Below are positions 32,035 through 36,551 of a stretch of DNA of 64,000 bases, in pieces; within the stretch, counting starts at the first letter, position 1; the number at the start of each line of letters is the position of its first letter. The position numbers and the translations under genes are program-made. The notes below the pieces were generated by a model that did no database searches, was not told the DNA's origin, and was given only the letters and a program-made list of their open reading frames with translations. The stretch comes from an uncultured Pelagibacteraceae bacterium (GTDB lineage: Bacteria; Pseudomonadota; Alphaproteobacteria; Pelagibacterales; Pelagibacteraceae), in contig CACMPD010000001.1 in NCBI GenBank assembly GCA_902615425.1, positions 1-64,000 of the forward strand, given 5' to 3'.

Positions 32035-32328
32035 TTGGCTATTGTAAAATCGAAGCTTATTAAAGAATTAAAAAAATCTTACCCCAATTTTTTAACTCGA
32101 GATCTTAATAAAGTAGTAGAAATTATTCTTAGAGAGATTAGAGAAACACTAAAAAGAAATGAAGGAGTGGAGCTAAGGGATTTTGGAATTTTCAGAGTAA
32201 ATATTCAAAAAGCTTCAATAAGACGAAATCCAAAAACAGGGGAGAAAGTAAATGTTCCAAAAAAAAGAACAATAAAATGGAAAATGTCTAAAGATCTGTT
32301 TAAAAAGTTAAATAATGAAAAAGAATAA
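32035..32328 (+). CDS. ihfB: integration host factor beta-type subunit, TTG start
   Basis: 97 aa. DNA-bending HU/IHF family protein. Seen: VKSKLIKELKKSYPNFLTRDLNKVVEIIL helix pair in parts, GVELRDFGIFRV, and the DNA-arm RRNPKTGEKVNVPKK. The only start that gives the full N-terminal helix is TTG at 32035; no clear Shine-Dalgarno precedes it. Located after rpsA and before pyrF, the usual place of ihfB. Its end overlaps pyrF by 14 bp. Confidence 0.92.
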   Translation: MAIVKSKLIKELKKSYPNFLTRDLNKVVEIILREIRETLKRNEGVELRDFGIFRVNIQKASIRRNPKTGEKVNVPKKRTIKWKMSKDLFKKLNNEKE

Positions 32329-32989
32329 AATTTTTGTAGCTTGTGATACAATTAATATTCCAAAAGTAAAAAAAATAATTGATAAAACACAAAATTCAAA
32401 AATAAAAGTAGGTTATAAATTTGGACTTGAATTTCTTAACTCAAAAGGTGGCAGACATTTTCTATCTAAATTAAAAAATAAGACAATATTTGCAGATCTA
32501 AAACTTCACGATATTCCAAATACTTGTGTATCAACAGTAAAAGCTATAAAGGATTTAAAAGTTAATTATTTAACTATACATATAAGCTCTGGCTTAGAAG
32601 CTTTAAAGGCAACCAAGAAAGTTTCGGGAAGAGTAAAGTTAATTGGGGTGACTATTCTTACATCATTAGACAATAAATCATTAAAAGATATTGGATTTAA
32701 TAAAGATGTAAAAAAATTAGTTCTTCAACAAGCAAAAATTGCAAATAAAGCAAAATTAGATGCTTTAGTATGTAGCGCTAAAGAAGTAAAACTAGTTAAA
32801 AAAGTATTTAAAAAAGAAATTATAACTCCAGGTATAAGATTTAATTCTAAATTAAATGATCAAAAAAGAGTTGTAACTCCTAAACAAGCTTATAAAAATG
32901 GTAGTGACTGGCTTGTAATGGGAAGACCCATAACCCAGGGGAATATAAAGAAAAATATTCAAAATTTAATCGATCACTTAGGTAAATGA
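32315..32989 (+). CDS. pyrF: orotidine 5'-phosphate decarboxylase
   Basis: 224 aa. Makes UMP in pyrimidine synthesis. Seen: FVACDTIN (family ALD), VGYKFGLEF with Lys, the catalytic ADLKLHDIPNT (DxKxxDI), and the phosphate-binding TPGIRF. TIM barrel of usual length. Overlaps ihfB by 14 bp and trpF by 4 bp, so translation is probably coupled along this run. Confidence 0.95.
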   Translation: MKKNKIFVACDTINIPKVKKIIDKTQNSKIKVGYKFGLEFLNSKGGRHFLSKLKNKTIFADLKLHDIPNTCVSTVKAIKDLKVNYLTIHISSGLEALKATKKVSGRVKLIGVTILTSLDNKSLKDIGFNKDVKKLVLQQAKIANKAKLDALVCSAKEVKLVKKVFKKEIITPGIRFNSKLNDQKRVVTPKQAYKNGSDWLVMGRPITQGNIKKNIQNLIDHLGK

Positions 32990-33603
32990 TCAAGGGTTTA
33001 AAAATTTGTGGGGTCTCAGATCCTGAAACTTTAAATTATATTTTAAATCATAATCATAAACCAACAATGATAGGTTTCATTACAAACTATGAGAAAAGTA
33101 AAAGGTTTGTTAAACTTGAAAAATTAAAAGATTTAATAAATATAGATAAAAAACAGGTTAAATTTGTTTCTGTGCTTGTAAACCCTAATGATGAAATACT
33201 GGAAAAAATAAAAGATTTAAATTTTGATTACTATCAGCTTTACGACGTAAACCCGGCTAGAACAAAGGAAATTAAATCTAAATTCAAAAAAAAAATAATC
33301 ACTGCTATTAATGTTTCTAGTAAAGATGATGTAATTAAATATAAGGGTTATACGGAAATTTCAGATATAATTTTATTTGACTCGAAAGGTTACCATAAAT
33401 CTGAAAGTTTTGATCATAGTTTACTAGATGATGTACCTAGTGATTTAAGTAAAATGATTGCAGGAAATATTCAAATAAATGATATACCTAACTTCAAGAA
33501 CAAAGAATTTATTGTTGATCTCAGCGGAGCATTAGAAGACCAATATGGAAAAAAAGATATTAATAAAATTAATAAATTGTTAAATTTACTTAAGAAAATA
33601 TGA
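32986..33603 (+). CDS. trpF: phosphoribosylanthranilate isomerase, divergent
   Basis: 205 aa. By position and fold the third step from anthranilate to tryptophan. Kept: KICG with the catalytic Cys (C8), an Asp in ILFDSKG matching the general acid, GFITNYEKSKRFV (usual GFxFxxxSPRxV) and VDLSGALED...GKKD near the end. Altered: the QLHG block reads QLYD, the phosphate-binding GGTG region reads YHKSES, and LAGGL reads IAGNI. It is therefore an unusual TrpF, matching the divergence of the two genes downstream. A different sugar-phosphate isomerase role cannot be excluded. Confidence 0.82.
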   Translation: MIKGLKICGVSDPETLNYILNHNHKPTMIGFITNYEKSKRFVKLEKLKDLINIDKKQVKFVSVLVNPNDEILEKIKDLNFDYYQLYDVNPARTKEIKSKFKKKIITAINVSSKDDVIKYKGYTEISDIILFDSKGYHKSESFDHSLLDDVPSDLSKMIAGNIQINDIPNFKNKEFIVDLSGALEDQYGKKDINKINKLLNLLKKI

Positions 33604-34844
33604 AACTTAAAAAAAGAGTTCCAGTTATCGATCAAGGAAATTCACTTGGATTTTGGGGTGGTAAATTTGGAGGAAACTTCGTTCCTGAGACTTTAAAAAA
33701 ACCAATCGAAGATTTGGAAGTTTTATTCAATAAACTTAAAAAGGATAAAAAATTTATCTCAGAGAGAGATAAATATTTTCAAAATTGGGTTGGGGCTCCC
33801 ACAAGATTTATAAAACTAAAGAATCTCACAAATTACATTGGTGGTGCTCAAATTTGGTCTAAAGTTGTATCAGATGCAAATGGAGGGGCACACAAAATTT
33901 ACAACGCAACTGTTCATTGTTTGCTTGCAAAACGATCAGGTAAAAAAATTATATGTGGTGATACTGGTGCTGGCTATGCAGGTAAAATGTTAAGTATGGC
34001 AGCTAAAAAGTTTGGTTTAAAATGTAAGATATTTATGGGTGCAAAGGATATTGCCAGACAACAGCCAAATGTAAAAGCAATGAAAAAAAATGGTGCGGAA
34101 GTAATACCTGTCTACTCTGGAAGTCAAACACTTGTAGATGCTGTCTCAGAATGTATGAGATTCTGGGTTGCTAACTGTGATACAACAGCAATGTGTGTTG
34201 GTAGTACTGTTGGTCCAGCAGTTTTCGTTCGTATATGTGGATGGAGTACAAGCCAAATTTCAAGAGAGTTAAAAGTACAGCTAATTAAAGAATTTGGATC
34301 AATTCCAAAAAAACTTAAGTTATACAATTGTGTCGGGGGTGGAAGTTCGAGCTTTGGGTTTTGGAATGAATTTATGGATTATGATAAAAAACAAGTTGAG
34401 TTTATTGGGGTAGAAGCTGGTGGACCTGCAAAAAGTAAAAAACATGCAGCACCTTTAACCTATGGTTCAAAGATTGGAATTCTACATGGCGCAGCTCAAT
34501 ATGTTAATCAGAACTCAGATGGACAAATAGAAGAGACGGAGTCAATTTCTGCAGGACTTGATTATCCTGGAATTTCTCCGCTTCATTGTTTTTTAAAAGA
34601 TACAAAAAGAGCTAGATACACAGCTGCAAGTGATGAAGAAGCTTTAAGTGCCTATAAGCTTGTTACTAAATTTGAAAAATTAAGACCCTCCTTAGAGCCA
34701 AGCCATGCTTTTTTTGTTGCACTTAAAGAGGCAAAAAAACTAAGTAAAAATACAGTGGTAGTAATTAATAGTTGTGGTGATGCTTACAAAGATCGTGGAA
34801 TTTTAGAGAAAAGATTAGGCAAAAAATATGTTAAATCCAATTAG
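33600..34844 (+). CDS. trpB: tryptophan synthase beta chain, divergent
   Basis: 414 aa. PLP fold-type II enzyme joining serine and indole. Kept: FGGNFVPETL, GGAHKI with the Schiff-base Lys (K99; Salmonella K87), GGGS, ISAGLDYPG, LEPSHA with Glu366 (E350) and Ser391 (S377). Altered: the usual KREDLxHxGAHK start reads KVVSDANGGAHK; AETGAGQHG reads GDTGAGYAG, so Glu109 is Asp121, Gln114 is Tyr126 and His115 is Ala127; the domain-contact Lys167 is Val179; GPHPYP reads GPAVFV; and SGRGDKD reads SCGDAYKD. It is a real open gene between trpF and trpA in the expected order. Altered substrate or weakened alpha-beta coupling is inferred. Confidence 0.87.
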   Translation: MKLKKRVPVIDQGNSLGFWGGKFGGNFVPETLKKPIEDLEVLFNKLKKDKKFISERDKYFQNWVGAPTRFIKLKNLTNYIGGAQIWSKVVSDANGGAHKIYNATVHCLLAKRSGKKIICGDTGAGYAGKMLSMAAKKFGLKCKIFMGAKDIARQQPNVKAMKKNGAEVIPVYSGSQTLVDAVSECMRFWVANCDTTAMCVGSTVGPAVFVRICGWSTSQISRELKVQLIKEFGSIPKKLKLYNCVGGGSSSFGFWNEFMDYDKKQVEFIGVEAGGPAKSKKHAAPLTYGSKIGILHGAAQYVNQNSDGQIEETESISAGLDYPGISPLHCFLKDTKRARYTAASDEEALSAYKLVTKFEKLRPSLEPSHAFFVALKEAKKLSKNTVVVINSCGDAYKDRGILEKRLGKKYVKSN

Positions 34845-35628
34845 TGTTGCATTTAAAAAAGCAAAAGCAGAAAATAGACCAGCGTTATTAACCTACACTG
34901 TTGCTGGTGATAGTTCAAAAAAACAATCTTTAGATATATTAAAATCTATATCTAAAAATGTAGATATTTTAGAAGTAGGTGTGCCTCACAATACTCCTGT
35001 TGCAGATGGAAGCCAAATTCAAACCAGCGCATACAGAGCAATTAAAAAAGGTATTAAAATAAATGATATATTTGGGATTGTTAGAGATTTCAAAAAATTT
35101 AAAAAAAACAAACCTATTATATTAATGGGTTACTATAATATGATTTTTCAATATGGAGAAAACAACTTTTTAAACAAATGTAAAACTTCGGGAGTAAATG
35201 GACTAATAGTTGTAGATTTACCTTGGCCAGAAAATAAAGATTTCGCAAAAAAATGTAAAAAAAAATCAATTTATTTTATTCAACTTTTATCACCTACAAC
35301 AACAAGTAAAAGACTTAAAAAGATTATACAAAACTCTCATCCAATGAATTATTTTATATCAATGCTGAGTACTACGGGTGGCAAATTAAAAGTATCACCT
35401 CGGGAAATACTTAAAAATTACAATAGGATTAAAAAAATTAATCCAAAAAAAGAGATTGTGATTGGTTTTGGAATTACAGATAAGACAATTGGAAAACTTA
35501 AATCTGCTGATGGATTAGTAGTGGGAAGTGCTATTTGTAAAGAAATTACGAGAAGTTTAAATAGTAGACAAAATCCTGTCACAAATGTAGGTAAGTTAGT
35601 AAGAAAATTAAAAAATAAAATAAAATGA
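34828..35628 (+). CDS. trpA: tryptophan synthase alpha chain, divergent
   Basis: 266 aa. TIM barrel that cleaves indole-3-glycerol phosphate. Both catalytic acids are kept: Glu49 in LEVGVP and Asp60 in VADG; a Tyr stands in the YFISMLSTTG segment, and GFGI and DGLVVGSAI are kept. The loop normally FSDPLADG reads HNTPVADG (54-61), so the Asp56 that contacts TrpB is Thr. The GVTG phosphate loop reads STTG. Overlaps trpB by 17 bp and accD by 4 bp. Confidence 0.88.
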   Translation: MLNPISVAFKKAKAENRPALLTYTVAGDSSKKQSLDILKSISKNVDILEVGVPHNTPVADGSQIQTSAYRAIKKGIKINDIFGIVRDFKKFKKNKPIILMGYYNMIFQYGENNFLNKCKTSGVNGLIVVDLPWPENKDFAKKCKKKSIYFIQLLSPTTTSKRLKKIIQNSHPMNYFISMLSTTGGKLKVSPREILKNYNRIKKINPKKEIVIGFGITDKTIGKLKSADGLVVGSAICKEITRSLNSRQNPVTNVGKLVRKLKNKIK

Positions 35629-36551
35629 ATTGGATCACTAAAATAATCAAAGCGGGTGAAAAAATAAAATCTGCAATCCATAAAAGAGCGTCCAAAGAAG
35701 ATATTGCTAATAGCGATTGGACATCTTGTTGCAAAGGTCCAATATTAAAAAAAGATTTAGAAGAAAATTTATGGGTTTGCCCTGATTGTAATAAACACCA
35801 CAGAATTAAACCTAAACAAAGATTTGATATCTTATTTGGAAAAGACAATTATGAAATATTTCAAACACCCATCCCAAAAGACGACCCTTTGAACTGGACA
35901 GACTCAAAATCCTATAAAGATAGATTAAAATCTGCCAGAAAAAAAACAGGTATGGATTGTGGAATGATGGTTGTAAGTGGTGAAATCAATGATGTTAAAA
36001 TTACCGCGGTTGCATCTGATTTTGACTTTTTAGGTGCATCAATGGCAGCTGCAGAAGGAGAGGCTTTCTTATACGGCATCCAGCATGCAATTGAAAATAA
36101 AACTCCTTTTTTATGTGTAAGTGCAGGAGGTGGAATGAGAATGATGGAAAGTCTGATTTCCTTATCTCAAATGACAAGAACCACACTAGCAATAAATGAA
36201 CTAAAAAATAATAATCTTCCATATCTTGTTTGTATAACAGACCCAACTGCAGGGGGTATCACGGCTTCCTATGCAATGTTAGGTGATATTCATATAGCTG
36301 AGCCTGGGGCATTAATCGCTTTTGCTGGAGCAAGAGTAATTCAAGGAACTGTTAAGGAAGAATTACCAGAAGGTTTTCAAAAGAGTGAATATGTTGAAAA
36401 AACAGGCTTTGTTGATTTAATTGTTGAAAGAAAAGATCTAGCTGAAAAAATTGGAACTTTATTGTCAATATTGTTAAAGAAAAATTCTGTTATAAGCACT
36501 GAAAATGATGAAACTACAGAAAATAGTCAGTCGCTTTCTAAAATTGCATAA
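35625..36551 (+). CDS. accD: acetyl-CoA carboxylase carboxyltransferase subunit beta
   Basis: 308 aa. Partner of AccA. Seen: LEENLWVCPDCNKHHRI, FDFLGASMAAAEGEAF, SAGGGMRMMESLISLSQM, TDPTAGGITASYAMLGDI and FAGARVIQGT. The first half of the zinc ribbon is odd: instead of CxxC it has adjacent C35 and C36 followed by Lys-Gly, with C52 and C55 normal, so the fourth ligand is shifted or lost. Some alphaproteobacteria lack the ribbon altogether. The 3' end overlaps folC by 47 bp. Confidence 0.95.
   Translation: MNWITKIIKAGEKIKSAIHKRASKEDIANSDWTSCCKGPILKKDLEENLWVCPDCNKHHRIKPKQRFDILFGKDNYEIFQTPIPKDDPLNWTDSKSYKDRLKSARKKTGMDCGMMVVSGEINDVKITAVASDFDFLGASMAAAEGEAFLYGIQHAIENKTPFLCVSAGGGMRMMESLISLSQMTRTTLAINELKNNNLPYLVCITDPTAGGITASYAMLGDIHIAEPGALIAFAGARVIQGTVKEELPEGFQKSEYVEKTGFVDLIVERKDLAEKIGTLLSILLKKNSVISTENDETTENSQSLSKIA

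Follow-up and report, generated by a model that had tools for sequence, protein, structure and literature searches.

How does a tryptophan synthase keep its two subunits in contact when the charged residues that join them in the model enzyme are missing from both? This question is raised by the trpB and trpA genes in a stretch of 64,000 nucleotides (hereafter the window) from an uncultured Pelagibacteraceae bacterium (assembly GCA_902615425.1, contig CACMPD010000001.1, positions 1 to 64,000). In Salmonella, alpha Asp56 and beta Lys167 form a salt bridge. A first-pass annotation of the window had proposed that both partners are lost together here, and had taken this matched loss as a sign of a new interface, uncoupled subunits or a different partner, not of random decay. 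The reading that we regard as probable is that the window trpBA is of a SAR11 (Pelagibacterales) type and encodes a working alpha–beta synthase, with a small/aliphatic residue pair in place of Asp56–Lys167 and Asp in place of Glu109 of the beta subunit.

Residue changes in TrpB and TrpA

Both genes lie on the + strand and overlap by 17 bases. The first, trpB (33600..34844), encodes a SAR11-type beta subunit of 414 amino acids (TIGR00263, 374.3 bits; phmmer match to solved TrpB), and the second, trpA (34828..35628), a SAR11-type alpha subunit of 266 amino acids (phmmer match to solved TrpA) that scores 209.7 bits against TIGR00262 and passes its cut-off of 102.35. Positions were matched by aligning the two proteins to solved structures of TrpB and TrpA with phmmer and by a multiple alignment with the TrpB and TrpA of E. 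coli MG1655. The window beta segment SGSQTLVDA aligns without a gap over SGSATLKDA, which places Val at beta 167 (codon 34134..34136, +), and the alpha segment PHNTPVADG aligns without a gap over PFSDPLADG, which places Thr at alpha 56 (34993..34995, +). Both assignments of the first-pass annotation were thus correct, and the shifted position matches that it had named as a possible refutation are not the case. An alignment shift or sequencing artefact is ruled out by the gap-free motifs in separate alignments and by the same residues in many separate assemblies, and we give this explanation practically no weight. Also present, as the annotation had stated, are the pyridoxal 5′-phosphate lysine of TrpB, Lys87 (33894..33896, +), and alpha Glu49 (34972..34974, +) and Asp60 (35005..35007, +).

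A larger change than the loss of the bridge, absent from the annotation, was observed at beta 109, where Glu is replaced by Asp (33960..33962, +; GDTGAGYAGK versus AETGAGQHGV). Glu109 is the catalytic carboxylate that activates indole (PMC9512447). Further changes in the window beta subunit are Gln114 to Tyr, His115 to Ala, GGGSN to GGGSS and GRGDKD to GDAYKD. Ser377 is unremarkable, as Cys occupies that position in 65 of 124 non-SAR11 sequences. Regarding the interface, Asp56 and Lys167 are located near beta Tyr279 (PMC8187860), and the alphaL2 loop and the COMM domain make up most of the contact between the subunits (PMC9512447). A second salt bridge, between beta Arg141 (34056..34058, +) and Asp305 (34560..34562, +), stabilises the closed state of the beta subunit (PMC9512447), and both of its residues are kept. 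By homology, the window TrpB is classed as a divergent TrpB1 variant, which has the lysine of TrpB1 and not its catalytic Glu109; of the features of canonical allostery, the Asp56–Lys167 bridge is absent and Arg141 and Asp305 are both present.

Distribution of the form and joint inheritance of the pair

Residues were read only in fetched loci, namely 216 SAR11 loci with both genes (with one gap at alpha 56 and one at beta 167), of which 187 were left after partial and identical ones had been dropped. The 124 non-SAR11 Pseudomonadota used for comparison came from E. coli, from Alphaproteobacteria and from other members of the phylum; they are best-scoring rows and not a random sample. At alpha 56 and beta 167, the SAR11 pairs comprised 139 Thr–Val, 21 Ala–Val, 13 Cys–Val and 1 Thr–Ile, which constitute the main SAR11 form (174/187), together with 8 Glu–Lys, 4 Thr–Leu and 1 Asp–Lys; the non-SAR11 set comprised 123 Asp–Lys and one sequence with a masked alpha subunit. 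No mixed pair was found among the 187 SAR11 pairs or the 123 readable others. Throughout the main form (174/174), beta 109 is Asp, and Lys87, Arg141, Asp305 and alpha Glu49 are kept; alpha Asp60 is kept in 173, beta 167 is occupied by Val (173) apart from a single Ile, beta 114 is Tyr or Met, and beta 115 is mostly Ala. Glu is found at beta 109 in all 124 non-SAR11 sequences and in the 13 other SAR11 ones. In the loci read, the loss of the bridge to Thr56/Val167 and the presence of Asp109 are therefore marks of the main SAR11 TrpBA form, not of the window alone.

In a search of 61 related genomes, the own genome counted, each had a TrpB-family match of some kind; seven matches were weak (E 4e-6 to 7e-10), two (G020 and G024) were of TrpB2 size and score, and a match passed the TIGR00263 cut-off in 29 genomes, 26 of which had the same form. 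Within the genus, the window TrpB was matched in 215 of 218 genomes, 10 of them weakly, with most identities at 73–98% among the matches listed; TrpB1 and TrpB2 were both undetected in 13 of the 218, for which assembly incompleteness could account. A class search covered 386 genomes, 298 of them with a match. Apart from the own genome, four genomes of the order were the only ones to reach 74% identity or more, and the occurrence of the main form outside the order was rejected, the best identity there being 46% among the matches listed. Close relatives of the Thr–Leu type outside SAR11 were similarly rejected (best 39% among the matches listed, 397 phylum genomes), as was the presence of main-form trpB on viral contigs, where 50 pattern matches included no relative. 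The best 80 loci of 546 relatives scanned were all from Pelagibacteraceae assemblies, which marks the organism of the window as a SAR11 bacterium.

The remaining SAR11 pairs fall into several other forms. A form typified by G012 (seven distinct loci) has Glu56–Lys167 together with Glu60 and a change of Asp305 to Gln or Thr; G050 combines Glu56–Lys167 with Leu141 and Asn305; G017, G154, G210 and G260 have Thr56–Leu167 with Lys141–Asp305; and G039 has the canonical Asp–Lys pair. Both bridges, 56–167 and 141–305, were lost together in none of the 187 loci. In addition, in G306 (L246), whose genome is a single contig, and in G052 (L007), trpA matches fall in two frames that meet at about residue 90 and about residue 140, so the gene is broken by a frameshift or by a sequencing error.

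In the window, the pair belongs to a + strand gene string, pyrF-trpF-trpB-trpA-accD, and the two synthase genes were found to be inherited jointly within it. The nearest TrpB type corresponds to the nearest TrpA type in all 187 distinct SAR11 loci, while flanking genes mix: in the seven G012-like loci, identity to the window ranges from 44% to 89% for accD and from 48% to 77% for pyrF. In 172 loci that have all five genes, trpB distances between loci follow those of trpA with a correlation of 0.94; any other two genes of the block give 0.53–0.76. Clusters of trpB and trpA are identical at a 45% distance cut-off; at finer cut-offs, their adjusted Rand index is 0.59–0.63 versus 0.56–0.61 for the best other pair listed, which is a narrow margin. 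Within the main form, partial rank correlations are 0.77 (trpB–trpA), −0.02 (trpF–trpB), 0.27 (pyrF–trpF) and 0.35 (trpA–accD). Because types and distances of the two genes track each other while their neighbours mix, TrpB and TrpA appear still to depend on each other, and the different partner entertained in the first-pass annotation is not borne out.

Function of the variant enzyme and competing explanations

The enzyme is regarded as working because dN/dS (the ratio of nonsynonymous to synonymous substitution rates) is low, because trpE, trpD and trpC are present in the genome, and because this form is the sole TrpB of genome G269, which we take to be that of strain HTCC1062. Purifying selection is evident in median dN/dS values of 0.032 for trpB (0.006–0.10) and 0.073 for trpA (0.03–0.25), each from 40 close pairs with a locus used once, and on these low values a pseudogene was rejected. 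These three pathway genes are grouped on one contig (C7) of the own genome, and each scores above its family cut-off. Neither a second TrpB1 nor a TrpB2 was found in the contigs of this genome, in an assembly that is 80% complete, and only a single match was of TrpB scale, the next reaching 27.7 bits. A normal trpBA pair elsewhere in the genome, which the annotation had held would refute its reading, was accordingly not found, and at this completeness a missing copy is possible. G269 carries the main form, and no TrpB2 was found in it. HTCC1062 has a single trpB, which was argued to be necessarily functional (Kagan et al., 2008, PMC2395257), and grows on a defined medium of pyruvate, methionine and glycine with salts, trace metals and vitamins (PMC6589437), from which we infer that it makes tryptophan from indole and Ser. 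Strain HIMB114 did not grow in that medium (PMC6589437), which counts against a general rule.

A true TrpB2 (624–636 bits, above the cut-off of 518.85) was observed in 3 of 31 SAR11 genomes tested, G023, G024 and G261. It stands beside a SAR11 TrpB1 in G023 (L053); no TrpB1 was detected in the incomplete assemblies of G024 (L054) and G261.

We propose that the charged latch between alphaL2 and the COMM domain would be replaced in the main form by a small or polar alpha residue (Thr, Ala or Cys) facing an aliphatic beta residue (Val or Ile), so that an apolar contact would take the place of the salt bridge at 56–167. Closure of the beta subunit would then lean on the retained Arg141–Asp305 bridge and other contacts. 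This presupposes that the subunits still assemble and that contact between residues 56 and 167 persists. By analogy, a structure of Salmonella beta K167T in the aminoacrylate form (PDB 7lt4, known to us by its title) suggests that the chemistry can proceed without this lysine; there, the same residue is lost, but in a laboratory mutant of a canonical enzyme. A model of TrpA reached a moderate mean predicted local distance difference test score (pLDDT) of 73.7, weakest at residues 58–64 and 171–187, and recovered the TrpA fold only.

Several observations weigh against this proposal. The TrpB model had a mean pLDDT of 38.1, from 14 close sequences, and the window TrpB score falls short of the TIGR00263 cut-off of 392.45. 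Both proteins are widely diverged: 90 of 211 conserved TrpB positions and 22 of 74 TrpA positions are replaced in the SAR11 form (conserved in at least 90% of 50 canonical alphaproteobacterial sequences and replaced in most of 35 representatives of the form), and with stricter cut-offs (95% conserved in 122 non-SAR11 sequences, replaced in more than 95% of the 174) the figures are 41 of 137 and 6 of 44. By simple arithmetic with independent sites, the probability that a named pair is lost on both sides is about 0.13, or about 0.04 with the stricter cut-offs, so the double loss is only mildly unusual (about 4–13%) given this divergence. Replaced positions are not enriched in the COMM domain, which faces alpha (11/39 inside versus 30/98 outside, p 0.84), or in the alpha loops (L2, 2/6, p 0.18, at positions 54 and 56; L6, 1/3, p 0.36); the sole enriched region of seven tested is the beta loop 190–210 (roughly 34200–34270 in the window; 9/11, p 0.0003). 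Within the main form (159 loci), the raw correlation of trpB–trpA exceeds that of trpF–trpA by a small gap (0.905 versus 0.855), and overlap of the genes together with shared transfer, not contact, could account for part of the paired inheritance. The pair counts come from related sequences and are not independent observations. The loss of both bridge residues may, judging from the trees, have been a single event: in the approximately unbiased (AU) test, a joint clade of the Val/Ile form and the Thr–Leu group was not rejected for TrpB (p-AU 0.71), whose tree is a quick one. The TrpA tree groups these two with a support of 58. Tree resolution is low, since even all three unusual forms together were not rejected for TrpA (p-AU 0.67), and in view of the AU test we do not claim that the loss occurred twice independently. 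In the alignment of SAR11 sequences, which the annotation had called for to see when the changes arose, both belong to the main form of the order, possibly through one event, and the annotation's argument from joint loss proves weaker than claimed.

Among the alternatives, the main rival, which we nevertheless hold to be unlikely, is that the subunits are uncoupled, with TrpA releasing indole and TrpB acting alone, as a slow oligotroph with few regulators perhaps needs no tight gating. The lost alpha–beta contact and the replacement of two of six strictly conserved L2 positions and of 41 of 137 in TrpB would fit such an enzyme; the agreement of types at every locus, the distance correlation above that of neighbouring genes and the retention of Arg141 and Asp305 in 174/174 do not. 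Slightly less likely still is ordinary drift in a small, A+T-rich genome that evolves fast, with a dispensable bridge, no compensation and a second residue relaxed after the first. It would explain the high background of replaced conserved positions, the interface without enrichment and a possible single event, and is opposed by the low dN/dS and by the constraint on residue 167, which is Val or Ile throughout the form. The annotation's rejection of random decay is supported, in that the change is found across the order, dN/dS is low and the residues are always paired in the loci read. The indole-activating residue, Asp in 174/174 and Glu in all others, raises a further alternative, that Asp109, Tyr/Met114 and a mostly Ala115 mark a neofunctionalised TrpB with another nucleophile or product, which the 41 strict replacements would also suit. 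We consider this very improbable, given that the partner alpha subunit keeps Glu49 in 174/174 and Asp60 in 173/174, that the pathway genes are present, and that this is the only TrpB in a strain growing without listed tryptophan (if G269 is, as we assume, HTCC1062). The sequences are thus best read as a known enzyme in a variant that runs through the lineage, and its coupling may have been preserved by other contacts or given up.

Related systems and implications

Compared with the canonical alpha2beta2 enzyme of TrpA and TrpB1 (Salmonella, E. coli, P. furiosus), the SAR11 form shares the gene pair, the families, Lys87, Glu49, Asp60, Arg141 and Asp305, and differs in lacking the 56–167 bridge and in having Asp109, GGGSS for GGGSN and a rewritten loop 190–210. 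Its homology to TrpB2 (TIGR01415, COG1350) is distant, the window TrpB scoring 93.0 bits, below the cut-off of 518.85. SAR11 trpB as a distinct cluster has been in print since 2008, and G269 carries the residues of the window form; in the available parts of that paper, the SAR11-like trpB1 cluster is described by tree and identity, and interface or catalytic residues, alpha changes and exchange of the pair are absent from the description (Kagan et al., 2008, PMC2395257). Residue-level changes, covariation and paired exchange in SAR11 TrpBA were not found in the open-licence literature searched.

Upstream of trpB, the window carries a divergent trpF (32986..33603, +). In five aligned genus sequences of this gene, the GGxG loop is absent and QLHG is changed to QLYD or QIYD; the ICG motif keeps its Cys, and a later Asp is also retained. 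Downstream of accD follows a folC-like frame, named from its own sequence and Kagan et al. The pyrF-trpF-trpB-trpA-accD block (32315–36551) is a mosaic in SAR11, in which each gene has several strongly diverged alleles, and these alleles, accD and pyrF included, mix between genomes of a single genus.

We tentatively consider it possible that SAR11 holds several long-diverged tryptophan synthases at one site, with lineages dismantling different parts of the allosteric circuit (Asp56–Lys167 and Glu109 in the main form, Asp305 in the G012-like form, and Arg141 and Asp305 in G050) and the pair moving as a locked unit through a mosaic housekeeping block. If this is true, the bridges would be interchangeable, not obligatory, and these natural forms could be compared to test which bridge is needed. 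SAR11 has been called the most abundant heterotrophic bacterioplankton (PMC10030771), and its main form of a model allosteric, channelling enzyme lacks the well-known residues Asp56, Lys167 and Glu109. As the natural Asp–Lys, Glu–Lys, Thr–Val and Thr–Leu pairs are exchanged as two-gene cassettes, the need of the bridge for coupling is directly testable.
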